A stretch of 27,932 nt of DNA from a virus. The stretch is from positions 1 through 27,932 of the IMG/VR virus record IMGVR_UViG_3300045941_000196, one strand, 5' to 3'. Of the stretch, positions 3,765 through 27,909 are shown piece after piece. The translations under genes were made by a program, and so were the position numbers. Below the pieces are notes generated by a model. That model was not told the origin of the DNA. It made no database searches and saw only the letters and a program-made list of their open reading frames with translations. How positions within the stretch are numbered: position 1 is the first letter of the stretch; the number at the start of each line of letters is the position of its first letter.

Positions 3765-4249
3765 TGGCCGAAAATGCTGCTGCATTTGACGAACCGACGG
3801 CGCGCGATCTAATCGCGATGCTCCGGTGGTGGCGCGGCCAGCCGAAGTTTCGGCCGCAAGGGCAGGATCGGGGTCCGACGCAATCGACGGGTGAGCATGT
3901 CATCGTCAAAGTGACGAGCACGACGCCGACGGATGGCCTCTACCCGGCCACGCTGCAAACCTGGACGTTTGCTACGGCAGAGTGGACGGAGGGAGCCTCA
4001 TGCTGGTTCTTGCCCGCGAATGGCGAGACGCCCGCCTTAGACCGCCGCTATGGCGCGCGGCGGATGAGCCTGAACACGGACGATGAGAAAGTCATCTATA
4101 CGCAGGATCTCGGCGTTGCCTGCTTCGTTCGGGTAAAATCGCTCACGAAAATCGGCTGTTTCTATCCGGCCGTCGAGTGCTTCTACGACCCGGAAACTTG
4201 TCAGTGGAATGATGGTGAGGATTGTTGGTATGTGGACGCGAACGAATGA
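3764..4249 (+). CDS. Hypothetical tail-region protein (161 residues)
   Basis: The start ATG 3764 overlaps the previous stop. The N-terminal third carries a basic W-W-R-G-Q-P-K-F segment. The rest is rich in Trp, Tyr and Cys, with repeated aromatic strands (Y-P-A-T-L-Q-T-W, C-W-F-L-P, C-F-Y-D-P-E-T-C, D-C-W-Y-V). The paired cysteines and Trp-rich strands suggest a small beta-fold structural or adhesion protein. I do not recognise a family. It overlaps the next start by four bases (ATGA at 4246-4249). Confidence 0.7.
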   Translation: MAENAAAFDEPTARDLIAMLRWWRGQPKFRPQGQDRGPTQSTGEHVIVKVTSTTPTDGLYPATLQTWTFATAEWTEGASCWFLPANGETPALDRRYGARRMSLNTDDEKVIYTQDLGVACFVRVKSLTKIGCFYPAVECFYDPETCQWNDGEDCWYVDANE

Positions 4250-6528
4250 CTACGATCTTTTTGTGGCTACTGATGATTGCCGCGCAACGATTTGAGGCGC
4301 TTCTGGTCGGTCACGCGAGCGAAGGCTCGGGGTCGTCAGGGCGCAAGATTTACGCCGGCACATGCACCGGCGACCAGTCAGGCTCCGGCGCCTTCTCCGG
4401 TGCCACCTGTCAGAGCGGCTTCGCCTCGCCCGCGGGCGAGGTGCGCGAGCTGGCTCTGCTGGTGGGGAACGCCGACGGACGCAAGGTGTACGCGCAAGGA
4501 GAGTGCTGCACGATCGCGAGCGGCCGCATCGGCGCCTATCTCGCCGGCCATGCGAGCGCGGCGAGCGGAAGCGGCGAATCGGGCAGCGGCGATCTGCGCA
4601 AGGTCTACGTCGGAGCATGCTGCGCACCATCACAAATCACGAATTGTTTTTCCGCGGACTTCGGGCAGGGAGCGGTAACGGCAAGAATCACGGCGCCGGA
4701 CACGAATCTACCCACCGCAAACAGTGCCGAAAAAACGGTCGCATTTTGGGTGAAGGCACGCTCTCTGCCGGCCGACACCAGGACGCTCATCCGTTTCGGC
4801 AGGTTCAACGTGGGTCTCCTGACTGCGGGCACCATTTTCGTCCTCCCCGGCCTGGGCTCTGGCGGCAAGAAAAGCTCGGGAATCACGACGGACCAATGGA
4901 TTCACGTCGTCGCGATCGACACCGGCTCTAGTGCTGATCTCTACATCAACGGCGTGCAGGACGCCGCGAGCCAGGGCGGGTCGAGTCCGCAAATCACCGA
5001 GTTGCGCATCGGCGGTGAGCCGACTTCAACGGCAGAGTTCGATGGTCTGATGTCCGATGTCCGCGTCTATGACCGCGTGCTGACTGCGGCGGAAATCGGC
5101 GAGATCTATAACAGCGGTCAAGGAAGCTGCACCAATGAACTTGCCAGCTCTCTTGTCGGTTGGTGGAAGCTGGACGACGGCACCGGCAGCACCGCAATCG
5201 ACACGAAGAATGGCGCCGACGGCACGCTAGAGGATGGTGCGACCTGGGCAGCAGAGTCACCCTTGCTTTGCGCATGCGAGGGAAGCGGGAGCGACAGCGG
5301 GGCAGACAGTTGCGCGTCGGTGCTGTTGGCCGGCACAACCAGCGCAGCGCGCATCACCGCGCCGGACACCGCACTGCCATCCGGCTCGACCCCCCGCACG
5401 CTTACCTTTTGGTTCAAGCTGAATTCTGGCAGCGATCCTTCGTTGCTGCTGAACATGGTCAATTACGGGCAGCACAGCGGAGCAAACCAGAAATGCGCGT
5501 CGGTTCTTTTGGGCGGCCCGTCGAACCCGAACAAGCTGATCGGCCAAGTCACGCCTGCCGGAGAATCCTTGGTCAGTTCGACGACGCTCTCCGTGGGAAG
5601 GTGGTATTTCGCCGCGCTGACCTATGCCAGCGGCACGGCCAAGCTCTACCTCGACAGCGTACTTGAGGACAGCGGAACCGGCACAGACAGCGGGGCGCTA
5701 AGCGAGCTTCGTATTGGGCACGAAGCCACCGCGAATCCAGCCATCAGCGGCCGAATTTCGGATGTGCGGGTTTTCAACCAGGAACTTTCGGCCGCGCAAC
5801 TCGCCGAGGTGCAGCAGTCGTGTACCAACACAATCGGCTCGGCGCTCCGCGGCTGGTGGAAACTGAACGAAGGCGAAGGGGATGTCGCCGCCGATTCGAT
5901 TGCTGGCAACGATGGCACGCTGGGGGAAGACGCGATATGGTCCACCGAGCATCCGCCAACAGATTGCTGTGGCGGATCGGGGAGCGGCGTTGGCACAGTC
6001 ACAGCCGATGGTTGCTGCCCTGACGAGCTTTTGCCATCGCAGGTTAGTTTCGTTGGCACTTCGGGAATTTATGACGGCGTGACGCTGGGCATCGGAGAGT
6101 GGATTACGGTTCTGCCGGATGGTAGCTCGATCGAATTTCTTGGCACGTTCTCCGGGGGCTGGATATTGCGTGATTTTGTGATCTCTGGGACACACAACGG
6201 TCTGCCTGTCACGGTCACAAAAGACCTGCTGATCTATTGCGGGTACGGGGAGTTCAGTGAAGGCGGCGGCCATGTCTGGGGCTGGCGCTTTAACACCAGG
6301 ACGAGGGGGTCTACCGGCTGGGCTGCCGCTGGGTGTCCGGGCGGTGTGCCCACGTCGTCCGACCTGTGGCAGCACAATTGCCGAGCTGCTGCCTACGACC
6401 CGGATGACTTTCACTCACCATTAACGGTCGGTGAGGGATGTGATCCGGTTTACATCGGCGGGTTCACCAGCGGGCAACCAGAGCTGAACTGTATTCAATT
6501 CCTCGCGTCCTATGTGGTTGTTGAGTAA
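4246..6528 (+). CDS. LamG-domain tail adhesin / tail fibre-like protein
   Basis: I chose ATG 4246 (760 residues) rather than ATG 4222 because it forms an ATGA overlap. The N-terminus is hydrophobic (residues 3-13). Three degenerate repeats follow, each with L-L-V-G-x-A...R-K-V-Y...C-C and Gly/Ser-rich linkers. Two concanavalin A-like (Laminin_G_3) domains lie at about 135-355 and 355-580. Both contain A-R-I-T-A-P-D-T near the start, a S-D-V-R-V strand, and an ending S-C-T-N...G-W-W-K-L...D-G-T-L. The C-terminal 170 residues form a separate Gly/Cys-rich domain. LamG folds bind glycans, so a receptor-binding role is likely. Confidence 0.85.
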   Translation: MTTIFLWLLMIAAQRFEALLVGHASEGSGSSGRKIYAGTCTGDQSGSGAFSGATCQSGFASPAGEVRELALLVGNADGRKVYAQGECCTIASGRIGAYLAGHASAASGSGESGSGDLRKVYVGACCAPSQITNCFSADFGQGAVTARITAPDTNLPTANSAEKTVAFWVKARSLPADTRTLIRFGRFNVGLLTAGTIFVLPGLGSGGKKSSGITTDQWIHVVAIDTGSSADLYINGVQDAASQGGSSPQITELRIGGEPTSTAEFDGLMSDVRVYDRVLTAAEIGEIYNSGQGSCTNELASSLVGWWKLDDGTGSTAIDTKNGADGTLEDGATWAAESPLLCACEGSGSDSGADSCASVLLAGTTSAARITAPDTALPSGSTPRTLTFWFKLNSGSDPSLLLNMVNYGQHSGANQKCASVLLGGPSNPNKLIGQVTPAGESLVSSTTLSVGRWYFAALTYASGTAKLYLDSVLEDSGTGTDSGALSELRIGHEATANPAISGRISDVRVFNQELSAAQLAEVQQSCTNTIGSALRGWWKLNEGEGDVAADSIAGNDGTLGEDAIWSTEHPPTDCCGGSGSGVGTVTADGCCPDELLPSQVSFVGTSGIYDGVTLGIGEWITVLPDGSSIEFLGTFSGGWILRDFVISGTHNGLPVTVTKDLLIYCGYGEFSEGGGHVWGWRFNTRTRGSTGWAAAGCPGGVPTSSDLWQHNCRAAAYDPDDFHSPLTVGEGCDPVYIGGFTSGQPELNCIQFLASYVVVE

Positions 6529-12873: not shown

Positions 12874-13611
12874 ATGACGCTCGCCAGCGAATTCCGGGAG
12901 CAAGGCTACGTCCTTCTGCGCGGCATCTTCAGTGCCGCAGAAACGTCCAGCCTGCGCTTCGACTGCCAGTGCGTGCTCGCCAAGGATTCCGAGTTCGACT
13001 GCGACGATGGCAATTTCCGCATTGATCCGATCAACCGCGAAGACCGGCTGCGCGGCATTGCCTTCTACCCGCCGCTCCTGCAGGCGCTGCGCGACGTGCT
13101 CGGGCCGAAGCTGGCCTACATCCCGGAGCACTCGCTGCTCCGCGCCTACTACCGCGACGGCTTCCACCGCGATTCGCAGCAGTTCAACCTCTCGACGGGC
13201 AGGGATTCGATCTGGGCCGACTGTCTGCTCGCCCGCCCGGCGATCTACCTGCAGGCGAACCATGCGGTCCAGGGCGGCGGGCTCGACGTGATTCCCGGCA
13301 GTCATCGGGGAGAGACCTGCGCCACTCCCGTCACGATCTTCAACCAGCTGGGCGACGTGGTGCTGTTCCACCTGAACACGCTCCACCAGGCGACACCGAA
13401 GCTGGCCCCTCCCTCGATCGACAAAATCGCGATCTTCCTCGCCGTCGGGCCGGATGATGCCCACGCCCGCCAGTTTGCGAAGTACCTGACGGCGCACCAG
13501 ACGCGCTACACCGATTACATGCGGCCCTACAACCTTCGCGACGAAACGAAGATTCTCAGCGAACGCAATGGCGTGCGCTGGCTAACCGGAGGTGAGCAAT
13601 GCGACGCATAG
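12874..13611 (+). CDS. Phytanoyl-CoA dioxygenase (PhyH)-like 2OG/Fe(II) oxygenase
   Basis: The 245-residue protein begins with the PhyH-like F-R-E-Q-G-Y-V-L-L-R-G-I-F. The iron ligands are H98-x-D100 (F-H-R-D-S) and H171 (L-H-Q-A-T-P). G-G-G-L-D-V-I-P-G-S-H (134-144) is the family hallmark strand. The arginine that usually holds 2-oxoglutarate about 10-15 residues after the distal His is replaced by a lysine (K184, I-D-K-I-A-I-F), which is unusual. It is unrelated in sequence to the P4H-type oxygenase at 8582. Bacterial and phage relatives hydroxylate small molecules and sugars. Confidence 0.85.
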   Translation: MTLASEFREQGYVLLRGIFSAAETSSLRFDCQCVLAKDSEFDCDDGNFRIDPINREDRLRGIAFYPPLLQALRDVLGPKLAYIPEHSLLRAYYRDGFHRDSQQFNLSTGRDSIWADCLLARPAIYLQANHAVQGGGLDVIPGSHRGETCATPVTIFNQLGDVVLFHLNTLHQATPKLAPPSIDKIAIFLAVGPDDAHARQFAKYLTAHQTRYTDYMRPYNLRDETKILSERNGVRWLTGGEQCDA

Positions 13612-14276
13612 CGATCTTGCAAGGTGCGCGGCTGGGGTCGAGCCGGCTGCCGAACAAACTGCTGCAGTCCGTGGGGGGCATGACGCTGCTCGAAGGCGGT
13701 CTGCGCCGGCTGCGGGCGCTGGAAGAGGCGATCGGCGTGACCGCCCTGGTGGCCTGCTGCCAGGAAGACGGTGCGATCTGGGAAGCGGTCGCTGCGCACG
13801 GGCTCGAAACCGCGCGGATCACAAAACAGGCGGCCGCGGCAAACACCTGGGCCGACGCATTCGGCGCCCTGCGCGAGCCGCTGGCGCACCGATTTGACTG
13901 GCTCATCGACGGCAACTTCCTCTGCCGGCCGTTCCTATCCGTGGACACGATTCAGCGCATTGTCGAGCTGGCGCGCACGGCAACGCGGCCGCTGGTGACG
14001 GCAACCCTCGCCCGCCGCCTGGTGTGGAACCTCGACGGCGACCTGATTGCCGGCAGCGGGCAGACGGCCAATGGCGTCAGCAACCCGGAGAGCTACGTCG
14101 CCAATCACCTCGCCTACGTCATCCCGGCGATGATGCTGGGCAATGAGGAAGAGGCGGCGAGGGCCGTGCCGGTGGACGTGAAGCTGTCGCCGCTCGACCG
14201 AATCGACATCGACGATCAAGACGATCTGGACCTGGCTCGCCTCATTGGAAGGGACTATCTGTGCTCCTCGAAATAA
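13599..14276 (+). CDS. Cytidylyltransferase-like protein (SpsF / CMP-sugar synthetase family), copy 2
   Basis: The 225-residue protein is a close paralogue of the one at 9226. It shares the start M-R-R-I-A-I-x-Q-G-A-R-L-x-S-S-R-L-P-x-K, the core D-W-L-I-D-G-N-F-L-C-R-P-F-L-S (100-114) and the end D-R-I-D-I-D-D-Q-D-D-L. ATG 13599 is preceded by GGAGGTGA at about 5 bases and overlaps the oxygenase gene by 13 bases. Both copies replace the usual G-D-x-P metal site with G-N-F-L-C-R-P-F, so this is a property of the subfamily and not decay. Likely role: activation of a sugar as a CMP derivative. Confidence 0.78.
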   Translation: MRRIAILQGARLGSSRLPNKLLQSVGGMTLLEGGLRRLRALEEAIGVTALVACCQEDGAIWEAVAAHGLETARITKQAAAANTWADAFGALREPLAHRFDWLIDGNFLCRPFLSVDTIQRIVELARTATRPLVTATLARRLVWNLDGDLIAGSGQTANGVSNPESYVANHLAYVIPAMMLGNEEEAARAVPVDVKLSPLDRIDIDDQDDLDLARLIGRDYLCSSK

Positions 14277-14641: not shown

Positions 14642-14662
14642 AAACACCTGCCCTCGGGGTGG

Positions 14663-14707
14663 CCCCTCGCCGAGCAAGCGCACCGCCGGCGAGGGGTTTC
14701 ATTGTTT
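14663..14707 (+). terminator. Intrinsic terminator after the modification island
   Basis: CCCCTCGCC (14663-14671) pairs perfectly with GGCGAGGGG (14688-14696) around a 16-base loop and is followed by TTTCATTGTTT. It lies 22 bases after the last island gene and directly before the next promoter. Confidence 0.7.
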
Positions 14708-14757: not shown

Positions 14758-14859
14758 ATGCCGGCCGTGACACCCCACGTCTACGCCAAATCCTCTTCAG
14801 CTACGCCAGCCGCAAGCCGTGTTTCCGTGCGCCCACTTCCTTCCTGCGGAGGCCGCTGA
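14758..14859 (+). CDS. Possible 33-residue leader ORF
   Basis: An ATG 25 bases after the -10 box opens a 33-codon frame whose TGA overlaps the next start (TGATG at 14857-14861). GAGAGG lies directly before the ATG, too close for an ideal SD. The peptide is Ser/Ala/Arg-rich and matches nothing I know. It may be a coupling leader or only untranslated leader sequence. Confidence 0.25.
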   Translation: MPAVTPHVYAKSSSATPAASRVSVRPLPSCGGR

Positions 14860-15203
14860 TGACCTCGGAAGACTGGAAAACGGTACTGCTCGCTTTCATC
14901 GCGACGATCGGTGGCGTGCTCAACGCGATCATCCTGGTTTACGTCGAGCACCTGCGCCGGAAGCAGACGGCGAATGACAAGAAGACGGACGACGCGACCG
15001 TTGCCTCGAAGGCCGCGGAGGCGTCGGCGAATGAGGCCAAGAGGGCGGTGAACGGGCGCCTTGACGAATTGCTCCAGTCGGCCAAGGAAAAGGCATTCCT
15101 CGAAGGCAAGGCGGCGGCGCTCGCGGAAGCAGCGGCCGTCTCCGTCGCGCAGCAGAAGGCAAAGGTGGCAGCCGATGCCGTTGCCAAGGAAGGTGGAAAG
15201 TGA
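14859..15203 (+). CDS. Single-span membrane protein with coiled coil (holin or spanin candidate)
   Basis: The 114-residue protein has one transmembrane helix at about residues 8-29 (V-L-L-A-F-I-A-T-I-G-G-V-L-N-A-I-I-L-V-Y-V). A basic stop-transfer segment (H-L-R-R-K-Q) and a long Ala/Lys/Glu-rich helix, probably a coiled coil, follow to the C-terminus. It is the first gene after a strong promoter and overlaps the metallopeptidase gene by 4 bases (GTGA). A holin is possible from size and place; an inner-membrane spanin-like or anchoring role is equally possible. No family match is claimed. Confidence 0.7.
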   Translation: MTSEDWKTVLLAFIATIGGVLNAIILVYVEHLRRKQTANDKKTDDATVASKAAEASANEAKRAVNGRLDELLQSAKEKAFLEGKAAALAEAAAVSVAQQKAKVAADAVAKEGGK

Positions 15204-16051
15204 CCAGCGCAGAGTCAATCTGGGCGGTGGAACGGATGAAGGACTTGGCGTGGCTGCCGCAAGATGCCGGCCACGATCCGACCGCGTTCTCCGGCGATGC
15301 CGCGCTGATTCAGTATCAGCAAGAGCACGGGCTGGAGCCGACCGGCGAGCTCGACCCGGCCACGGTCAATTGCCTGTTGCACGATCAAGGCCGCTGCGGC
15401 TGTGTGGAACAGCTGGGCGACGGCTCGCCGACCCTCAAGCTGCAGACCAATCGGCCGCTCGTCTTCGTGCGCGATGCTCTGCCGGGTTTCAGCCGCGACC
15501 AGATTTGGTCGTGGGTCGAGGAAGCATACCGCCGCTGGGGTGCCGTCTGCGACTTCAAGGCGCGACGGATTCTCGACTTCGCGGAAGCGGCCTCCACCGA
15601 TTACGTCAACCTCATTACGGTCGCGGACCTGGGCGCGGGCGGCGTGCTCGCCGACCAGCAGTTGCCCTACACTGGCGGCCGTGTGCTGATGATGCGGCTC
15701 AACTCCCGAATTCGCTGGATGCCGACCGATGGGCCGATGAGCGGTGGCGGCATCGACCCGGTGCGCACGATCGCGCATGAGGGCGGCCACTTCCAGGGGC
15801 ACCAGCATTGGCCCGTCGGTGGCCCGCCCGAGCTGATGGAGCCGACCGTCAGCAACACGATCATCCGTCCGCAGCCGACTGAGGGCGCGGTGTCGGCCGG
15901 ATGGTTCGGGCCGCCCCCGCCGCCGCCCCCGCCGCCGGTTCCGACCGATCCGACGAAGTTCAAGTATTACATGAGCCTTTTCGACGGGCTGACCCGCAAG
16001 CCGGTCGGAAAGAGCTTTGGGCTTACCGAATTGCCGGAGTTTATCCGTTGA
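15200..16051 (+). CDS. Peptidoglycan-binding, matrixin-type (M10-like) zinc metallopeptidase
   Basis: The 283-residue protein begins at GTG 15200. Residues about 10-60 form a PG_binding_1 domain (Q-Y-Q-Q-E-H-G-L-E-P-T-G-E-L-D-P-A-T). The catalytic domain has the metzincin motif H193-E-G-G-H197-F-Q-G-H-Q-H203 (HExxHxxGxxH) and a Met-turn candidate M213. A run of nine prolines near residue 240 leads to a short tail. Architecture resembles matrix metalloproteases with a peptidoglycan-binding domain. No signal peptide is visible, so export would need the membrane protein upstream or lysis. It could cleave cell-wall or S-layer proteins; planctomycetes have protein-rich envelopes. Confidence 0.85.
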   Translation: MTSAESIWAVERMKDLAWLPQDAGHDPTAFSGDAALIQYQQEHGLEPTGELDPATVNCLLHDQGRCGCVEQLGDGSPTLKLQTNRPLVFVRDALPGFSRDQIWSWVEEAYRRWGAVCDFKARRILDFAEAASTDYVNLITVADLGAGGVLADQQLPYTGGRVLMMRLNSRIRWMPTDGPMSGGGIDPVRTIAHEGGHFQGHQHWPVGGPPELMEPTVSNTIIRPQPTEGAVSAGWFGPPPPPPPPPVPTDPTKFKYYMSLFDGLTRKPVGKSFGLTELPEFIR

Positions 16052-17532
16052 TGCGCGCCGTCGTGCTCTCTCTGTTGCTCTGCAGTGCCGCTGTCGCTGG
16101 CCCGGCCGATGCTGTTGCTGTCGCAACCGATCTCGGACGGCTGCCGGAGAATGACCGGCTATTCGCGGCGTATTTCGTCCATCCCGTTCCCGTCGAGGCG
16201 GACAAGCGGCTGGCATTCCTTCCGACGCTGGATGAGTTTCACGACGTTTTCTCGTTCCACGTCAACCAGCTTTCCAGCAAGGGCGCGATTCTCCGGCCGA
16301 CCCGAATCGCTCCGCATATCTGGCGCGCGGACTTGCGACATTACGGCTGGAAGCGATCGACCTGGGACAAGATGGCGCCGGCCAATTACGCCTACGTCGA
16401 ATCCGAGCGAAAGAAGCGGAAGGTGCTCGTCAACGGCCGGCGAGTAACAAGGATTTTCGTCAAGGACGCCGTGGCGCACTGGGTTCCGACCGACGCGGCT
16501 GACTTCCTCGTGAGCGAAACGGGAACGGTCACGCCGATCGTCTCGGCGCCGTGGTTCCTCGCGAACACCTGTAGGCAGTTGACGTTGACCAATCAGCAGC
16601 TCGGCTTCGGCTACTACGATTGGTTCGGTGTCAAAAAGCCGCAGGACTTCTTGAAGCTCATTCGATTCCGCGAGAAAGATTCGCTCGACCTGGAGCGCGA
16701 CATCCTGGAAGTCGTTGACGATTCTGGCGTGAGCAAGCAAAACCGGATGATCGCCCTGCACATCGCACTGACCGGGCTGGTGTGCTACACGCTCGACACC
16801 GACAACGAGACGGGCGCCGGCAACGCGATTGCGAACTTGCAGCGAAATGCCTTTAAGCCGAAAGCTCGCGAGTGGTACTTTGTGCTGCTCAACGGCTTGC
16901 CAGGCTACATGCTCTCGGATGACGACCTGAAGGAGCTCCAGGCGTCCGCCCCAGACTTCATTGGCGCCGACAAGTCGCCGTTGAACCAGTCGATCGACCC
17001 GCGCATTCACGTCTGCCTCGCCTGCATCCGCTGTCACGCTGGCGACGTTCTCAAGCCGGTCGATGGCTGGGCGCGCAAGAACTTCACGCTGGACAAGCTC
17101 GGCCTGATGGTCCCCGCACTGTTCAAGGGCGCTGACCCCGATGAGCAATTCAGGATCTTCGAGGAGCTGAAGCGTCAGTACCTCGTGCTGAACTTCTCCA
17201 ACTCCCTGAATGTCCAACGGACAGCCTACCGGGCGTCGATCAAGGAAGCGTGCGGCATGGAGCCCGGCCCGCTGGCTGTGGCGTTTGCGAAGCACTACCA
17301 CGCCTACGCCGACAAGCCGGTGACGCTGGAGATGGCGGCGGCCGAGCTCGGTTACACCGTCGCGGACACGCGGGCAGCCTTTCGTCGCGCTGGCGATCCA
17401 GGCGGATACGGAATTCCGCCCGAGCTCGCAGCGCTTGCGCTTGCGAAAGAGCAGCCGATGAAGCGGCTCAAGTGGGAAGAGAACTACGCTGAGGCGCAGC
17501 GAATCATGCTTGCAGACAAGGGGAAGCCATGA
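16051..17532 (+). CDS. Exported CxxCH protein (c-type cytochrome-like), 493 residues
   Basis: The start ATG 16051 overlaps the peptidase stop. A Sec signal peptide is clear (M-R-A-V-V-L-S-L-L-L-C-S-A-A-V-A, cleavage near residue 17). A single haem-c attachment motif, C325-I-R-C328-H329, lies in V-C-L-A-C-I-R-C-H-A-G-D, next to an extra cysteine C322. The rest is rich in charged and aromatic residues and resembles no phage family I know. Planctomycetes encode many large secreted CxxCH proteins, so host origin is likely. Whether haem is attached is not known. An ATGA overlap links it to the second CxxCH gene. Confidence 0.75.
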   Translation: MRAVVLSLLLCSAAVAGPADAVAVATDLGRLPENDRLFAAYFVHPVPVEADKRLAFLPTLDEFHDVFSFHVNQLSSKGAILRPTRIAPHIWRADLRHYGWKRSTWDKMAPANYAYVESERKKRKVLVNGRRVTRIFVKDAVAHWVPTDAADFLVSETGTVTPIVSAPWFLANTCRQLTLTNQQLGFGYYDWFGVKKPQDFLKLIRFREKDSLDLERDILEVVDDSGVSKQNRMIALHIALTGLVCYTLDTDNETGAGNAIANLQRNAFKPKAREWYFVLLNGLPGYMLSDDDLKELQASAPDFIGADKSPLNQSIDPRIHVCLACIRCHAGDVLKPVDGWARKNFTLDKLGLMVPALFKGADPDEQFRIFEELKRQYLVLNFSNSLNVQRTAYRASIKEACGMEPGPLAVAFAKHYHAYADKPVTLEMAAAELGYTVADTRAAFRRAGDPGGYGIPPELAALALAKEQPMKRLKWEENYAEAQRIMLADKGKP

Positions 17533-18242
17533 AGTATCTCGTTACCTACTTTGCAGTCTTGGCCGGATGCGTCATCGTCGCGGGGCCGGCAATGGCGAAT
17601 CCGCCGTGCCGATCGTGCCCGCCGAAGAAGGCGACGATTCCGCCGAAGCCTCAGTTTCGCGACAGGTTCGTGCCGGTGAACGTGCCGTATCCATACCCGG
17701 TGCCGTATCAGGCTCCGACGAATCTGGTCGCCACGATCTTCCCGCAGCCGACCTACAACACTTCCGTCACCGTGACAACTCCCACGGTCGCCGCTCCGCA
17801 GGCGGTTCAGTTTCAGGTGACGCAGCCGGGCACTGCCCCGGTGTTCGGCGTTCCCTACGGGCAGGCGCCGCACGCGCCAAGTGCCGTTCCGCTGTCAACG
17901 GAAGCACGACTGGACCGGCTTGAAGTCGCCCTCGGCCAGTTGTGTGAAACCCTGAAAGTCACAAACACGGTCAAGGCGCCGGAGCCGGTTAGGACGCCGG
18001 GCCTGCCGCGCGTGCTCGGTAGTAAGTGCGCCATCTGTCACACGCCAGCGAAGGCCAAGGGAGAATTCGTCCTGTTCGACAAGGGCCAGTTGGCCGCGCT
18101 CACAGCCAAGGACTTCGCGCGGATGCACCGCTACGTTGCGGCGAACAAGTGCCCGCCGGCCAACAACCCTGAGAACGTCGTTCCGCTCGACGACGCGGAG
18201 AAGTCGGAACTGCTGGACTGGATCAGCAAGCAACCCAAGTGA
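17529..18242 (+). CDS. Exported small c-type cytochrome-like protein with Pro-rich region
   Basis: The 237-residue protein has a signal peptide (V-T-Y-F-A-V-L-A-G-C-V-I-V-A-G-P-A-M-A, cleavage near residue 24). A Pro/Val/Thr-rich linker runs to about 125, then a short coiled stretch (L-D-R-L-E-V-A-L-G-Q-L). The C-terminal cytochrome-like domain has C167-A-I-C-H171 and a methionine in F-A-R-M-H-R-Y that could be the sixth ligand. C27-R-S-C30 near the mature N-terminus could bind metal or form a disulfide. Placement beside another CxxCH protein suggests they act together outside the cytoplasmic membrane. Confidence 0.78.
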   Translation: MKYLVTYFAVLAGCVIVAGPAMANPPCRSCPPKKATIPPKPQFRDRFVPVNVPYPYPVPYQAPTNLVATIFPQPTYNTSVTVTTPTVAAPQAVQFQVTQPGTAPVFGVPYGQAPHAPSAVPLSTEARLDRLEVALGQLCETLKVTNTVKAPEPVRTPGLPRVLGSKCAICHTPAKAKGEFVLFDKGQLAALTAKDFARMHRYVAANKCPPANNPENVVPLDDAEKSELLDWISKQPK

Positions 18243-18257
18243 AAGGACCGTGTGCCA

Positions 18258-18503
18258 ATGAAGCGTCCAATCGTGTTCGCGTTCGCCGTGGCGTTCGCCC
18301 TGCTGTGCCTCTCGGCCGGCAGCGCCGACGCCGCCCTGTTCCCCCGCCGCGCCCTGCTCCGCTCGCAGGCGCAGCTCAACCGCTCGCAGGCGCGCCTCAA
18401 CAACGCGCAGGCGAGGGCGCTGAACCGCCAACTGCGGTCGGCGAAGTTCGTTACCGTTTTCGACCCGGTGAGTGGCAAGTTTGTGCAGCTCCGGGTGAAG
18501 TGA
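18258..18503 (+). CDS. Small exported protein (81 residues)
   Basis: ATG 18258 has AAAGGA 8 bases upstream; GTG 18252 is an in-frame alternative. A signal peptide (F-A-F-A-V-A-F-A-L-L-C-L-S-A-G-S-A-D-A) is followed by a basic Gln/Asn/Arg/Ala-rich segment with repeated R-S-Q-A-x-L-N units, then V-F-D-P-V-S-G-K-F-V-Q-L. It is the last gene before a strong terminator. I do not recognise it; it may be a small partner of the two CxxCH proteins. Confidence 0.68.
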   Translation: MKRPIVFAFAVAFALLCLSAGSADAALFPRRALLRSQAQLNRSQARLNNAQARALNRQLRSAKFVTVFDPVSGKFVQLRVK

Positions 18504-18516
18504 TCTCTTCCCGCGG

Positions 18517-18553
18517 CGCCCCGGTTGCCGCGGCTGGTGGCCGGGGCGTTTTT
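18517..18553 (+). terminator. Intrinsic terminator after the exported-protein block
   Basis: CGCCCCGG (18517-18524) pairs with CCGGGGCG (18541-18548) and is followed by TTTTT (18549-18553). It starts 14 bases after the stop of the small exported protein and closes the unit that begins at the 14705 promoter. Confidence 0.8.
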
Positions 18554-18573: not shown

Positions 18574-18840
18574 ATGAGTGATTGCGTCAAGGTCGAGCAA
18601 CTGAAGGCTGCCGGCGTCGATGAGGCGAACCATGCGGAACTGCTGAGCCTGCCGTCGTGGGTGTCGGTCGAGACAGCGCTGAAGCTCTACGCGCTGTGGC
18701 AGGAATTCAAGCCCTACCTGCCCCCGCTCAAGGACTTCCTGGCGAAGTTCTTTGCGATCTTCCGCGAGTCGCCGCCCGCTCCGGCCCCAGTGCCGCCGCC
18801 GGCGCCCGCGCCGACTGACCCTTTCGCCCCGCCGGCGTGA
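18574..18840 (+). CDS. Hypothetical 88-residue protein with Pro/Ala-rich tail
   Basis: ATG 18574 lies about 8 bases after GAGGTG. The N-terminal half is helical (L-S-L-P-S-W-V-S-V-E-T-A-L-K-L-Y-A-L-W), with an amphipathic or weakly hydrophobic stretch around 50-65. The last 20 residues are almost only Pro, Ala, Asp and Thr. No known domain. Its stop forms a GTGA overlap with the HNH gene. Confidence 0.62.
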   Translation: MSDCVKVEQLKAAGVDEANHAELLSLPSWVSVETALKLYALWQEFKPYLPPLKDFLAKFFAIFRESPPAPAPVPPPAPAPTDPFAPPA

Positions 18841-19175
18841 TCCGCCGGATCATCAGCTGGTGGCGAAGGCGGCGGGAGCGGCTGACGATGCCGCTGGTGA
18901 AGCGTAACCCGCGATTCGAGCGGGAGCAGCGGGAATGGGTGAAGGGGAAGGTGTGCGACTGGTGCGGGCGGCCGGCGACGACCGCCCACCACACGAAGCC
19001 AGTGGGCATCTTTCCCGAGCTGGAAATGGTGAAAGAGCTCTGGCAGCCGGTGTGCAACGGCGAGTGCCACTTGCGACTGTCGCACTCCGGCGACTTCCGA
19101 GCGTACAACCCGCACGCCTTCAAGGATGCCAAGAAGCAGCAGAGAAGGCGCAAAGAAAGGAAGTACACGCGATGA
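18837..19175 (+). CDS. Small HNH nuclease-like protein
   Basis: The 112-residue protein starts at GTG 18837; ATG 18888 is possible. After a strongly basic N-terminus (W-W-R-R-R-R) it has C40-D-W-C43, then A-H51-H52-T-K-P, and V-C73-N-G-E-C77-H78-L. This is the arrangement of compact HNH nucleases: two CxxC zinc pairs with the catalytic His in between. Phage HNH proteins of this size act in DNA packaging or as free-standing endonucleases. There is no terminase nearby to favour the first role. ATGA overlap with the next gene. Confidence 0.75.
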   Translation: MIRRIISWWRRRRERLTMPLVKRNPRFEREQREWVKGKVCDWCGRPATTAHHTKPVGIFPELEMVKELWQPVCNGECHLRLSHSGDFRAYNPHAFKDAKKQQRRRKERKYTR

Positions 19176-20679: not shown

Positions 20680-21231
20680 CTGTTCCCCATCGACTACGCC
20701 CTGTCGTTGGCTCTTATCATGGGACCGTGGGCGACGGACTGGATGGTCGTGCGGAGCGTCCAAAGGGATTCGAGTGGGACCGTTGGGCCATCCCTCGGGC
20801 AAGAAGTGCTCGATCCGCGCGAGTGCCGCTACGTCTTCGTGAGGCAAGAGGATTACCTGGCCGATTGCGGGATGGTCCGACGGCGATGGCGGGAGCTGCG
20901 CGACGCCCCGCCGCTGCACCACTGTATGCGGTTTCCTGACCGAGCATTCATCAACGATCTGCTCTTTTTCAACCGGCAATATAGCGACCATGTTGAGCGG
21001 CAACGCGGGATCGGCTTCGGCAACGACTGGGCCTTGCGCGAGACGGTGTGCGAGTGCAACCGGCTGTATGCGATCTGGGACACGGCGCGGGATGCGCGCT
21101 GCGACTATTACTACGTCACTGTTCGCCGTGGCGCCTTGAAGAAGCTCCGCGAAATGATCGGTTTCCCGGCCTACTGCTCCGGGTGCATGCCGCCGCACAT
21201 ACCGATATGGCGTTTCGCAAAACTAGACTAG
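20680..21231 (+). CDS. Hypothetical 183-residue phage protein, probable CTG start
   Basis: The frame opens after TGA 20665-20667. CTG 20680 has an ideal SD (GGGAGG at 20668-20673, 6 bases away). TTG 20707 and ATG 20719 have none. The extension gives F-P-I-D-Y-A-L-S-L-A-L-I-M-G-P-W. The protein is mixed helical and aromatic, with a Cys-rich C-terminus (A-Y-C-S-G-C-M-P). No family recognised. Confidence 0.62.
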   Translation: MFPIDYALSLALIMGPWATDWMVVRSVQRDSSGTVGPSLGQEVLDPRECRYVFVRQEDYLADCGMVRRRWRELRDAPPLHHCMRFPDRAFINDLLFFNRQYSDHVERQRGIGFGNDWALRETVCECNRLYAIWDTARDARCDYYYVTVRRGALKKLREMIGFPAYCSGCMPPHIPIWRFAKLD

Positions 21232-21242
21232 GGAGAAGGGCA

Positions 21243-21926
21243 TTGCGAGGAAGACTTCAAGACCTCACAAACAAGACGTTTGGCATGCTCACGGCCATTC
21301 GCCATGTAGGGTTTAGCGCCGGATCGTCGGCACTCTGGGAATGCAGATGCGTGTGCGGCAGGATTACCACCGTGTCACAAAACAACCTCTCAAGGACCAA
21401 CCGGCCACGTAGCTGCGGATGTGTGAAGCGCCGGCGAGCCGAGCATGATGACCAATTCGTCCTGAATACACGGAAGATCGGCGACTGTCTCGAATGGCAA
21501 GGCTCGCTAACCAACGCGGGATACGGCCAAACCAGCAAGGATGGCAAGCACGTAAATGCCCATCGGCTTTCCTTCGCTATGTTTCGCGGCCCCATACCTG
21601 ATGGCCTTTGGGTTCTCCATCGTTGCGACAATCGCAAGTGCATTCGGCCTTCGCACCTTTTTCTTGGAACTTTGCAAGACAATTCCGACGACATGGTTGC
21701 TAAAGGCAGGTCTGCGACTGGGCTGCGGCATGGCTCGCATACGCACCCCGAATGTGTAGCGTGGGGCGCCCGAAGGTCTCGCCTCAGACCAGAAGACGTT
21801 ATGCAAATACGAAGCATGGCAGCAAACGGACTTCCGCACAGGATCATTGCCGACAAGTTTCAGGTTGCTCGAACGACGGTCGTGAAAATTGCTCGCCGTC
21901 TCTCATGGAAAAGGATGGGAGACTAA
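21243..21926 (+). CDS. HNH homing-type endonuclease with C-terminal HTH
   Basis: The 227-residue protein starts at TTG 21243 (GGGAG 7 bases upstream). Residues 1-65 match the N-terminal module of many phage HNH proteins (L-T-N-K-T-F-G-M-L-T; W-E-C-R-C-V-C-G; S-C-G-C). The HNH_3 domain follows (C-L-E-W-Q-G; H-R-L-S-F; L-H-R-C-D-N-R-K-C; S-H-L-F-L-G-T). The end is a helix-turn-helix (A-A-N-G-L-P-H-R-I-I-A-D-K-F). Such enzymes cut specific DNA sites and spread by homing. Its base composition is less GC-rich than its neighbours, a sign of recent arrival. TAATG overlaps the next gene. Confidence 0.88.
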   Translation: MRGRLQDLTNKTFGMLTAIRHVGFSAGSSALWECRCVCGRITTVSQNNLSRTNRPRSCGCVKRRRAEHDDQFVLNTRKIGDCLEWQGSLTNAGYGQTSKDGKHVNAHRLSFAMFRGPIPDGLWVLHRCDNRKCIRPSHLFLGTLQDNSDDMVAKGRSATGLRHGSHTHPECVAWGARRSRLRPEDVMQIRSMAANGLPHRIIADKFQVARTTVVKIARRLSWKRMGD

Positions 21927-23131
21927 TGCCCAAACGGTCCGCCAGCAAGGCCGAAACTGCCCGCCGGCTCGCGACCCTCTTGCAGACGCAGGGCGAGCCT
22001 GGCGAATCGTCCGAGCTGTCGATGGGCGACGAGCGGGCCGCCTTGACTGTTCGGAGTTTCACCGTCCGCACGCTGGATGCCGCCCTTGCCACGTCTCAGG
22101 TCGATCTCGCCGTTTGGGAAGTCGAGCGGTACGTCGTCAACAAGTGGGACATGGCGGCGAAGGTGGAAGTCGAGAATCGGCAGAAGCTCGCCGTCACTGA
22201 GCTCTGGCAGGTCAAGGTGTGGCTGCGGCGCCGGGTTGCAAAGACGATGGCGGAAGCGTGCGCCGGCATCATCGACCGCATGCGGCAGCACGCCCCGAAG
22301 TACCCGCGACTGCCAACGGTCCCGCGGATCACCGATCCGCACTTGCTCGTCATCGGCCTGTACGATCATCATTTTGGCAAGCTGGCCTGGGGCAAAGAGA
22401 CTGGCGAGGATTACGACCTGAAGATTGCGGAGGAGAGATTTCTTGAAGGCGGCAAGCAACTGCTGAGCAAGGCGAGCGGCTACCCGATCGAGCGATTCGT
22501 TCTGCCCCTCGGCCAAGATTTTTTGCACATCGACAGCCAGGCGAACACAACGACGGCGGGCACTCCGCAGGACGTGGACGGGCGCTTTGCCAAGATCATC
22601 GAAGTGGCGAAGATGGCGGTCATCAGGCTCATCGACCATCTCATCGCCTTCGCCCCGGTCGAGGTGCCTTGGGTGCCTGGCAACCACGACTATTACACCT
22701 CGTATATGTTGGCGAAGATCATTGAGGCGTGGTATCGGACGACGCCGCGGGTGATCGTCGATGCCGCGCCCATCCCTCGCAAGAGGATCTGCTACGGGGT
22801 CAACCTGCTCGGGCTGACGCACGGCTGCGACGAGCGGCATAGTGGCCTGCCAGGGAACATGGCGCAGGAATGGCCGCACGATTGGGCGGCGACGCGGTGC
22901 CGGGAATGGCTGATCGGACACCAGCACAAGGTAAAAGAGGATCACTACAACACGGCCGACATGCACAGCGGCGTCGTGGTCCGCGTGCTGCCGTCGCTCT
23001 CGGGCACGGACGCTTGGCATTACAAGCGAGGCTACATCGGTGGGCGCGGCAAGTCGGCGCTGGGCCTGCTTTACAGCAAAAGGGATGGATTCGCCGGCCA
23101 GTTCTCAACGAACGTATGGAGACGCCCATGA
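21926..23131 (+). CDS. Calcineurin-like metallophosphoesterase
   Basis: The 401-residue protein carries the metal ligands in order: D147-H-H149 (L-Y-D-H-H-F-G), D198 (G-Q-D-F-L-H-I-D), G-N253-H254-D255 and G-H332-Q-H334. The N-terminal 110 residues contain a helix-rich extension, possibly DNA-binding. Enzymes of this fold cleave phosphoesters in DNA, RNA or nucleotides; phage members often act in DNA metabolism or host-DNA processing. The start ATG 21926 overlaps the HNH stop and its end overlaps a 27-residue ORF (ATGA). Confidence 0.88.
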   Translation: MPKRSASKAETARRLATLLQTQGEPGESSELSMGDERAALTVRSFTVRTLDAALATSQVDLAVWEVERYVVNKWDMAAKVEVENRQKLAVTELWQVKVWLRRRVAKTMAEACAGIIDRMRQHAPKYPRLPTVPRITDPHLLVIGLYDHHFGKLAWGKETGEDYDLKIAEERFLEGGKQLLSKASGYPIERFVLPLGQDFLHIDSQANTTTAGTPQDVDGRFAKIIEVAKMAVIRLIDHLIAFAPVEVPWVPGNHDYYTSYMLAKIIEAWYRTTPRVIVDAAPIPRKRICYGVNLLGLTHGCDERHSGLPGNMAQEWPHDWAATRCREWLIGHQHKVKEDHYNTADMHSGVVVRVLPSLSGTDAWHYKRGYIGGRGKSALGLLYSKRDGFAGQFSTNVWRRP

Positions 23132-27040: not shown

Positions 27041-27062
27041 GGACTCAGGGCGGACTCAGGGC
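27041..27062. repeat. 11-bp tandem duplication at the end of the methyltransferase gene
   Basis: GGACTCAGGGC occurs twice in a row (27041-27051 and 27052-27062), covering the stop codon region of the C5-methyltransferase remnant. GGACTCAGG also occurs at 27651-27659, at the stop of the next upstream gene. Confidence 0.8.
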
Positions 27063-27632
27063 GTCCTTCACTGCGCGGGCGATGGCGCGGCCCATTGGCT
27101 GCGGAACTCCGTTGCCGATTGCTTTGCATAGGGCCGTTGACCGAAACGGCAGGTGTTCCAGAAATTCCACCGGCAACCCTTGCTTGCGGCACAGTTCTTG
27201 CGCCGCCGCCGCACCCTTTCCGTTGAAAGGGAGCTTGCTCATCTTGGCCCCCGTCCGTTTGTTTCTCTTGGGCCGCATCCGGTCGGTGCCGCGCGTGAGG
27301 CCGTTCTTCTCGCTGCTGCCACCACACGCCGCATACTCGAACTCCGGCGACTCAAACGTAACCACGTCGATGAGCAGCGGCGGGCGTCCTTCACCGCGCC
27401 AGCCCCAGGAGAATCGTCGCACCCTGTTCTGCGTGGCCGGGTTGCCGTCCTCATCGACACACTGGCGGTTGTTCAGGATGTACGAGTAAACGTCATAGCC
27501 CTTGACCTTCGGCGTTGGAGCGTCGGGCACGTTCTCCATCAGGAACCATTGCGGCGCGGCCTCGCCTATCACTCGCTCGAACTCCGGTATCAAGTTAAGG
27601 TCAAGGCCGGGGAATAAACTCAGCACGAGCAA
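27045..27632 (-). CDS. C5-cytosine DNA methyltransferase remnant lacking the catalytic PCQ segment
   Basis: The 195-residue product (TTG 27632; SD GGGGAGG 9 bases upstream; GTG 27641 is the alternative) begins V-L-S-L-F-P-G-L-D-L, motif I of C5 methyltransferases. It then jumps to L-I-P-E-F-E-R-V-I-G-E-A-A-P-Q-W-F-L-M-E-N-V, which holds motif VI. Motif VIII (Q-N-R-V-R-R-F-S-W-G) and motif X (A-I-G-N-G-V-P-Q-P-M-G-R) are present. The segment with motifs II-V, including the catalytic Pro-Cys-Gln, is missing, so it cannot methylate alone. The reading frame stays open, so it is either an in-frame deletion relic or a regulatory remnant. Confidence 0.75.
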   Translation of the reverse strand: MLVLSLFPGLDLNLIPEFERVIGEAAPQWFLMENVPDAPTPKVKGYDVYSYILNNRQCVDEDGNPATQNRVRRFSWGWRGEGRPPLLIDVVTFESPEFEYAACGGSSEKNGLTRGTDRMRPKRNKRTGAKMSKLPFNGKGAAAAQELCRKQGLPVEFLEHLPFRSTALCKAIGNGVPQPMGRAIARAVKDALSPP

Positions 27633-27654
27633 GCGCTCCACCCTCCCCTCGGAC

Positions 27655-27909
27655 TCAGGTACACCTTGCGGCCTCACGCAGCACGTCCACAAACATGCTG
27701 TACAGCGCCACGCGCTGGTAGATGTCGAGGGCGTCAAATCCAGTATCCGGCAGCAGTTGGCAGTGCCTATCGGACTCGCGGGCGAACCACTCCTCGAAGG
27801 CCACGAAGTCGGCGTATGGGCCTTCGGTAGTCTCTAACTCTGCCGCACGAGCAGACCACGGGCTGTCCTGTCGTTCCTCTGGTTGTGCAGACCATTCGCT
27901 TGCGGCCAT
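27655..27909 (-). CDS. Hypothetical 84-residue acidic protein
   Basis: ATG 27909 has GGGGAG about 6 bases upstream. The product is acidic and helical, with Y-A-D-F-V-A-F-E-E-W-F and D-A-L-D-I-Y-Q-R-V-A-L-Y-S-M-F. No domain recognised. It ends 13 bases before the methyltransferase remnant's first possible start. Genes further upstream in this operon lie outside the window. Confidence 0.62.
   Translation of the reverse strand: MAASEWSAQPEERQDSPWSARAAELETTEGPYADFVAFEEWFARESDRHCQLLPDTGFDALDIYQRVALYSMFVDVLREAARCT

Follow-up and report, generated by a model that had tools for sequence, protein, structure and literature searches.

An exported CxxCH protein pair in a tailed-phage contig, a putative split form of a bacterial di-haem c-type cytochrome

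A phage gene unit encoding two exported CxxCH proteins

The stretch of DNA analysed in this study (the window, 27,932 nucleotides, IMG/VR record IMGVR_UViG_3300045941_000196) is a tailed-phage contig, with genes encoding a tape measure protein (PF20155, 3.5e-25), a TIGR02675 match, a phage exonuclease and HNH proteins. It carries two consecutive genes for exported proteins with a CxxCH motif, the motif of covalent haem c attachment, and these long and short proteins (P0001 and P0002) are the subject of this analysis. An initial annotation of the DNA had described them as a cytochrome-like pair within one terminator-bounded unit that also encodes a peptidase. Both were confirmed to be intact, overlapping genes for exported proteins, with the motifs located exactly at C325 and C167, and strong hairpins were found on both sides of the unit (Table 1); a simple count of terminators in the window gave no excess over shuffles.

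Neighbouring genes overlap by 1-4 bases from the peptidase through P0001 to P0002, as TGATG is common to the peptidase stop and the P0001 start, and ATGA to the P0001 stop and the P0002 start. GC content is even across the window (0.58-0.67). A chimeric contig, which the initial annotation had raised as a concern, could be excluded in practice at this cassette because of the gene overlaps and because the same cassette recurs in other phages, as described below. No near DNA match to the window was found in phage records. The number of CxxCH motifs expected by chance was ~0.007 per protein of 493 amino acids (aa) with the composition of P0001, and 0.11 over the 8,366 residues of the open reading frames (ORFs) of the window. 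The sole further CxxCH among these ORFs is at 21889-22200, in another frame and overlapping the exonuclease gene.

No family was identified for P0001 in Pfam, PHROGs or NCBIfam. Homology over the whole of its domain, referred to here as domain D, was found to proteins of the 595-kb phage LR756511, the one P0001 relative detected by tblastn against phage records (6e-10; 8e-17 by BLASTP), and is also evident in an alignment of 36 P0001-type sequences. These sequences have 17-25% identity to P0001, and only ten columns are invariant, namely F169, Y188, E274, the NGL motif upstream of CxxCH (N281, G282 and L283), C325, C328 and H329 of the CxxCH motif itself, and R472. H329 is the sole invariant His and there is no invariant Met, which suggests that the predicted haem of P0001 (haem 2) probably lacks a second strong ligand, or has a Tyr in that place. 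Among the Tyr residues of P0001-type proteins, Y188 is invariant, and Y41 and Y286 are nearly so.

The AlphaFold2 model of P0001 (pLDDT 76, pTM 0.79) had no fold match in PDB or BFVD at E 0.001, and a model of one of the fused bacterial proteins described below had weak fold matches only, to cytochrome c6 and OmcF (prob 0.44 and 0.20). Searches of PDB sequences with P0001, P0002 and profiles were uninformative for domain D, and for the short protein they matched short CxxCH segments only. Subject to the quality of the model, the fold of domain D seems not to have been described.

The C-terminal part of P0002 is, by homology, a class I cytochrome c domain. In hhalign, the cytochrome domain of the short proteins aligned with the N-terminal cytochrome c domain of the fused bacterial proteins at 98.1% probability (E 1.3e-13), and the short proteins of huge phages matched Cytochrome_CBB3 (8e-5) and PSCyt1 (0.0019), whereas P0002 alone reached only 0.13, below the cut-offs. 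The signal peptide of P0002 was judged by eye from the sequence; its interpretation as a lipoprotein (lipobox LAGC) was set aside, as its relatives seem to have ordinary signal peptides.

Table 1. Features of the gene unit, with positions in the window
Feature	Position	Strand	Description
Upstream hairpin	14662..14697	+	Terminator-like, weak U tract; fold -33 kcal/mol with flank, z -3.04
114-aa protein	14859..15203	+	One N-terminal hydrophobic segment, charged tail; holin-like by anatomy only
Window peptidase (P0004)	15200..16051	+	Peptidoglycan-binding domain and metzincin-type zinc motif; without signal peptide
P0001, long CxxCH protein (domain D)	16051..17532 (ATG)	+	493 aa; signal peptide MRAVVLSLLLCSAAVAG
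CIRCH (C325-H329)	17023..17037	+	Haem c attachment motif; CxxCH invariant in 36 relatives
P0002, short CxxCH protein	17529..18242	+	237 aa; signal peptide, then an arm rich in Pro/Val/Tyr that contains CRSC, a short helix and, by homology, a class I cytochrome c domain at the C terminus
CAICH (C167-H171)	18027..18041	+	Haem c attachment motif; CxxCH invariant in 8 relatives
C208 of CPP segment	18150..18152	+	Met (MPP, MPR, MPS) at the same place in aligned relatives
P0003	18258..18503 (ATG)	+	Small exported basic protein; GTG start at 18252 possible
Terminator hairpin	18515..18550	+	Followed by UUUUU; fold -29.1 kcal/mol, z -1.99

The 114-aa protein gave a weak match to phrog_3534 (unknown function, 0.0014) and no Pfam match above cut-off. 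The window peptidase matched PG_binding_1 (PF01471, 1e-5), Matrixin (PF00413) reached only 0.063, and the zinc motif HEGGHFQGHQH (HExxHxxGxxH) was found by direct reading; with this peptidase as query, no close relative was found in IMG/VR and only weak, partial matches were obtained in 392 planctomycete genomes. P0003 matches in position the Gly/Val/Tyr-rich third protein of other phages, but it is dissimilar to that protein.

Elsewhere in the window, a nucleotidyltransferase resembling CMP-Kdo synthetase (PF02348, 4.3e-5; KdsB-type NCBIfam matches below cut-off) is encoded at 13599-14276 (and 12874-13611), between the tail genes and the lysis-like unit, and may serve surface sugar modification. 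A tail-region protein (4222-6528) has two LamG/ConA-like lectin domains (PF13385, 2.7e-42) and is a probable receptor-binding part, and HNH endonucleases, a DNA repair exonuclease and a minus-strand DNA methyltransferase are encoded at 18837-19175, 21048-21926, 21752-23131 and 27045-27737.

Related genes in phages and bacteria

A search of viral databases, as had been proposed in the initial annotation, revealed that the CxxCH pair recurs in LR756511 and in IMG/VR contigs, usually near a peptidase gene. The long gene is present twice in LR756511.1, in diverged copies at 361.8-362.8 kb and 483.0-485.6 kb, and the peptidase that precedes it differs between the two (C39-like or papain-like). In one copy (locus L007), a papain-like peptidase is followed by a 149-aa protein, the long and then the short CxxCH protein, and finally a Gly/Val-rich exported protein, and the other (L002) is located downstream of an exported C39-like peptidase. 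Scans of IMG/VR with LR756511 sequences yielded further relatives on contigs of 341 kb (L009), 103 kb (L010, which seems to come from the phage of L009), 18.8 kb (L011), 51 kb (L014), 57.5 kb (L015) and 162 kb (L016). The order of long, short and third gene is kept in L009 to L011 and L014 to L016, and the cassette of L016 directly follows a Baseplate_J gene (PF04865, 7.8e-13). No close relatives were found in IMG/VR with P0001 or P0002 as single queries, in the first alignment scan, or with the subtilase-type alignment.

Six phage loci encode exported third proteins that are Gly/Val/Tyr-rich and nearly free of Lys (e.g. L009:10852-11571, L014:9943-10641 and L016:9776-10654), which by composition would be structural or cross-linked wall material, and Pro/Tyr-rich arms are also present on exported short proteins of phage loci. 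The larger phages encode, in addition, an upstream exported protein (L007:4927-5682, L009:5923-6657, L015:6357-7244 and L016:6017-6874); these proteins are mutually related and have no family match, and their C-terminal half reads as a thioredoxin fold without CxxC.

A genome scan identified 46 loci in Poribacteria, Planctomycetota, Acidobacteriota, Armatimonadota, Verrucomicrobiota and Rhizobiales. In most of the bacterial relatives an N-terminal cytochrome c domain, with matches to Cytochrome_CBB3, PSCyt1 or Cytochrom_C, is fused to domain D, whose CxxCH comes ~350-395 residues later; in 13 fused proteins neither CxxCH motif varies, nor does the Met-Pro that belongs to haem 1. P0001 does not have the fused N-terminal domain, and such a domain is encoded next door as P0002. 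Because the P0002-type domain can be aligned with the N-terminal part of the fused forms, the two phage genes correspond to two halves of one bacterial protein, and P0001 and P0002 are thus very probably the halves of a di-haem c-type cytochrome that is a single polypeptide in most bacteria. The initial annotation had missed this relation to a bacterial di-haem family, as well as the fact that the peptidase belongs to a recurring arrangement.

One alternative is that the motifs are no haem sites, with their cysteines engaged in disulfides or in metal binding within the wall or the virion. Further Cys residues in the P0002 arm, the Cys-rich N-terminus of short-protein relatives and the low model confidence around the P0001 motif would be in keeping with this, but the His of CxxCH is as invariant as both Cys in both families and the domain of P0002 has its homologues among cytochrome c domains whose distal Met is invariant, which makes such a role very improbable. 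The initial annotation had stated that a haem function would have to be given up if structure models showed the cysteines in disulfides away from any haem pocket; the motif proved strictly conserved, and the model is too uncertain for the pocket to be judged.

Genes of the single-haem type were also found in bacterial genomes. A Pirellulales chromosome (L062) carries, in this order, a subtilase gene, a long gene and a short CAACH gene; the genes on either side read as valS-like and folK/panC-like. In a planctomycete genome (L099), a subtilase gene and a long gene lie beside genes for a terminase (PF17289) and a lambda-type portal (PF05136), and because these genes adjoin, the locus is taken from its sequence to be a prophage or phage stretch. 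In L059, a subtilase gene and a long gene are in an apparent chromosome, and the contig ends there. Any family match was found in 12 of the 392 planctomycete genomes, and the subtilase-linked form at 1e-30 in two, which indicates that this single-haem form is rare in planctomycetes. In the tree, 11 single-haem rows (nine from phages or prophages, L062 and L059) were placed apart from the 55 other rows (100/98).

As a separate observation, caspase-domain genes, some fused to an FGE-sulfatase domain, were found in the examined flanks of the fused homologues L018, L046, L036, L052, L053, L057 and L101.

A peptidase gene is located just upstream of the long gene in nine of 11 loci, with one small gene between them in the papain type. 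These peptidases belong to four unrelated families, metzincin (window), papain C1 (L007, L009, L011 and L014), C39-like (L002) and subtilase S8 (L062, L099 and L059).

Predicted function of the protein pair

Gene structure, homology, haem-motif invariance, synteny and the occurrence of split and fused forms are directly shown by the sequences, whereas haem attachment is an inference. Both proteins would be exported by Sec and receive haem from the host cytochrome c maturation system, as expected from c-type cytochrome biology. P0002 would supply the electron-transferring class I cytochrome c domain on its Pro/Tyr/Cys-containing arm, and P0001 a second domain of novel fold, with a covalent haem, the CxxCH His as proximal ligand and no conserved His or Met opposite. 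The relation of split to fused forms predicts that the long and short proteins form a complex, and it is likely that P0001 and P0002 act jointly. Electrons may move between haem 1 and the more open haem 2, in either direction, as in di-haem redox enzymes of the low-spin/high-spin type.

Among the possible functions, a role in the host envelope as infection ends, coupled to the peptidase or to lysis, is tentatively preferred because of the recurring upstream peptidase, the exported Tyr-rich arms and third proteins, and the protein-rich wall reported for planctomycetes. The unit might be expressed late, as it follows the tail genes and includes the small membrane protein and the peptidoglycan-binding metzincin, and the cytochrome pair, together with the peptidase, might then remodel or breach a protein-rich wall. 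Planctomycete walls have been reported to consist of Pro/Cys-rich, disulfide-stabilised protein (PMC3035269), and another report describes peptidoglycan in planctomycetes as well (PMC4432640). Taken as a whole, a split di-haem cytochrome whose parts act jointly in an envelope role is somewhat favoured as the best explanation.

The initial annotation had suggested an exported haem c pair that might act as auxiliary metabolic genes in host electron transport. The first part of this suggestion held, given the homology of P0002 and the invariance of the P0001 CxxCH; the second found no support, as nothing in the present data ties the genes to respiration. Such genes would feed or drain periplasmic electron transport of the host and so sustain respiration during infection, which would suit the class I cytochrome c domain of P0002 and the occurrence of bacterial relatives in phyla rich in such domains. 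However, no oxidase, dehydrogenase or respiratory partner was found in or beside the cassette at any locus examined, domain D matches no respiratory family and the conserved neighbour is a peptidase, so that this role is considered quite improbable.

Peroxidase-like chemistry is the main rival, or a possible partner, to the envelope role, and is regarded as unlikely. With hydrogen peroxide as oxidant, the di-haem pair would cross-link or cleave exported proteins rich in Tyr/Cys, whether the arm of the short protein, the third protein (Gly/Val/Tyr-rich) found in other phages or proteins of the host wall. A haem 2 with a conserved Tyr and no conserved distal His or Met is as expected of an open haem, and the Tyr/Pro-rich arm and the Lys-poor, Gly/Tyr-rich third protein of the six phage loci would offer substrates. 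However, no match to cytochrome c peroxidase (CCP)/MauG or any other peroxidase family was found in Pfam or NCBIfam, there was no PDB fold match at E <= 0.001, and the third protein of the window itself, P0003, has no Tyr.

Alternatively, the pair might act in superinfection exclusion or counter-defence at the envelope, blocking other phages or disarming a host defence, for instance one run by caspase-type peptidases. An exported, variable accessory cassette and the caspase genes in the flanks mentioned above are consistent with this, but caspase genes are near a minority of the fused loci, their background frequency in those genomes was not compared, and the window cassette sits among late genes; this alternative is judged improbable.

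Several observations weigh against a functional split di-haem cytochrome at the envelope. P0001 differs from its relatives at many nearly invariant sites, yet keeps the ten invariant ones, and its branch in the tree is very long (3.54); its place among the single-haem rows is therefore unsure, and the lost residues together with the long branch suggest that P0001 might be degenerate or altered in function. The P0001 model is weak around CxxCH (pLDDT ~50-70, low at 306-317 and 336-344). P0002 has Cys208 where its relatives carry the distal Met, the usual haem ligand; His/Cys ligation occurs in other cytochromes c, and the replacement changes the expected properties rather than excluding haem, as a lower redox potential or a more open haem site would be anticipated. 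Furthermore, L002 and L099 have a long gene without an adjoining short gene, and L015 and L016 have no adjoining peptidase. Several cassette peptidases, including that of the window, have no signal peptide while the cytochromes are exported, so that direct contact between the two cannot be taken as given.

Significance and comparison with known systems

To our knowledge, c-type cytochromes have hardly been reported from phages. No report of such a phage c-type cytochrome pair was found in the open-licence literature, and the word cytochrome is absent from the main text of the huge-phage paper (PMC7162821). The cassette recurs on contigs between 19 kb and 595 kb long, and in one planctomycete genome it adjoins phage genes. 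The bacterial di-haem family to which it is related is not named in Pfam and has no PDB fold match, and a described function for this family could not be found. Judged by its sequences, this virus-borne split form of an uncharacterised bacterial di-haem cytochrome family is real, conserved and, as far as found, unrecognised, and it seems that a redox module dedicated to the envelope is maintained by phages. That the haem protein stays constant while the peptidase next to it changes suggests an extracytoplasmic process, common to phages and bacteria, for which there seems to be no name. It is a speculative extension that phages of planctomycetes, and perhaps of other bacteria, modify or open a protein-rich, disulfide-bonded envelope with a two-part haem redox enzyme and interchangeable peptidases; we know of no phage precedent for a redox step in lysis or envelope remodelling.

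The pair resembles di-haem cytochrome c peroxidases and MauG in its proposed working mode, with one electron-transfer haem and one open haem, but these are different proteins without a sequence or fold match to the window pair. Phage lysis cassettes (holin, endolysin and accessory proteins) may be compared with the unit in that a small membrane protein, holin-like by anatomy only, and a peptidoglycan-binding peptidase are encoded directly upstream of the pair; we know of no lysis cassette that contains c-type cytochromes. The P0002 domain and its relatives are of the general class I type represented by PSCyt1 (PF07635, planctomycete cytochrome C) and Cytochrome_CBB3 (PF13442), although P0002 scores below the cut-offs for these families and has Cys at the place of the distal Met. 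The fused bacterial di-haem proteins, for example those of Planctomycetaceae (L021), Chloracidobacterium (L017), Poribacteria (L026) and Rhizobium sp. (L053), differ from the window pair in being single polypeptides that keep the distal Met and stand in a context that is not phage, and they often carry extra domains (TPR, LRR/cohesin/dockerin or DUF4384); they share with the window pair the CxxCH and NGL motifs of domain D and a cytochrome domain homologous to P0002.

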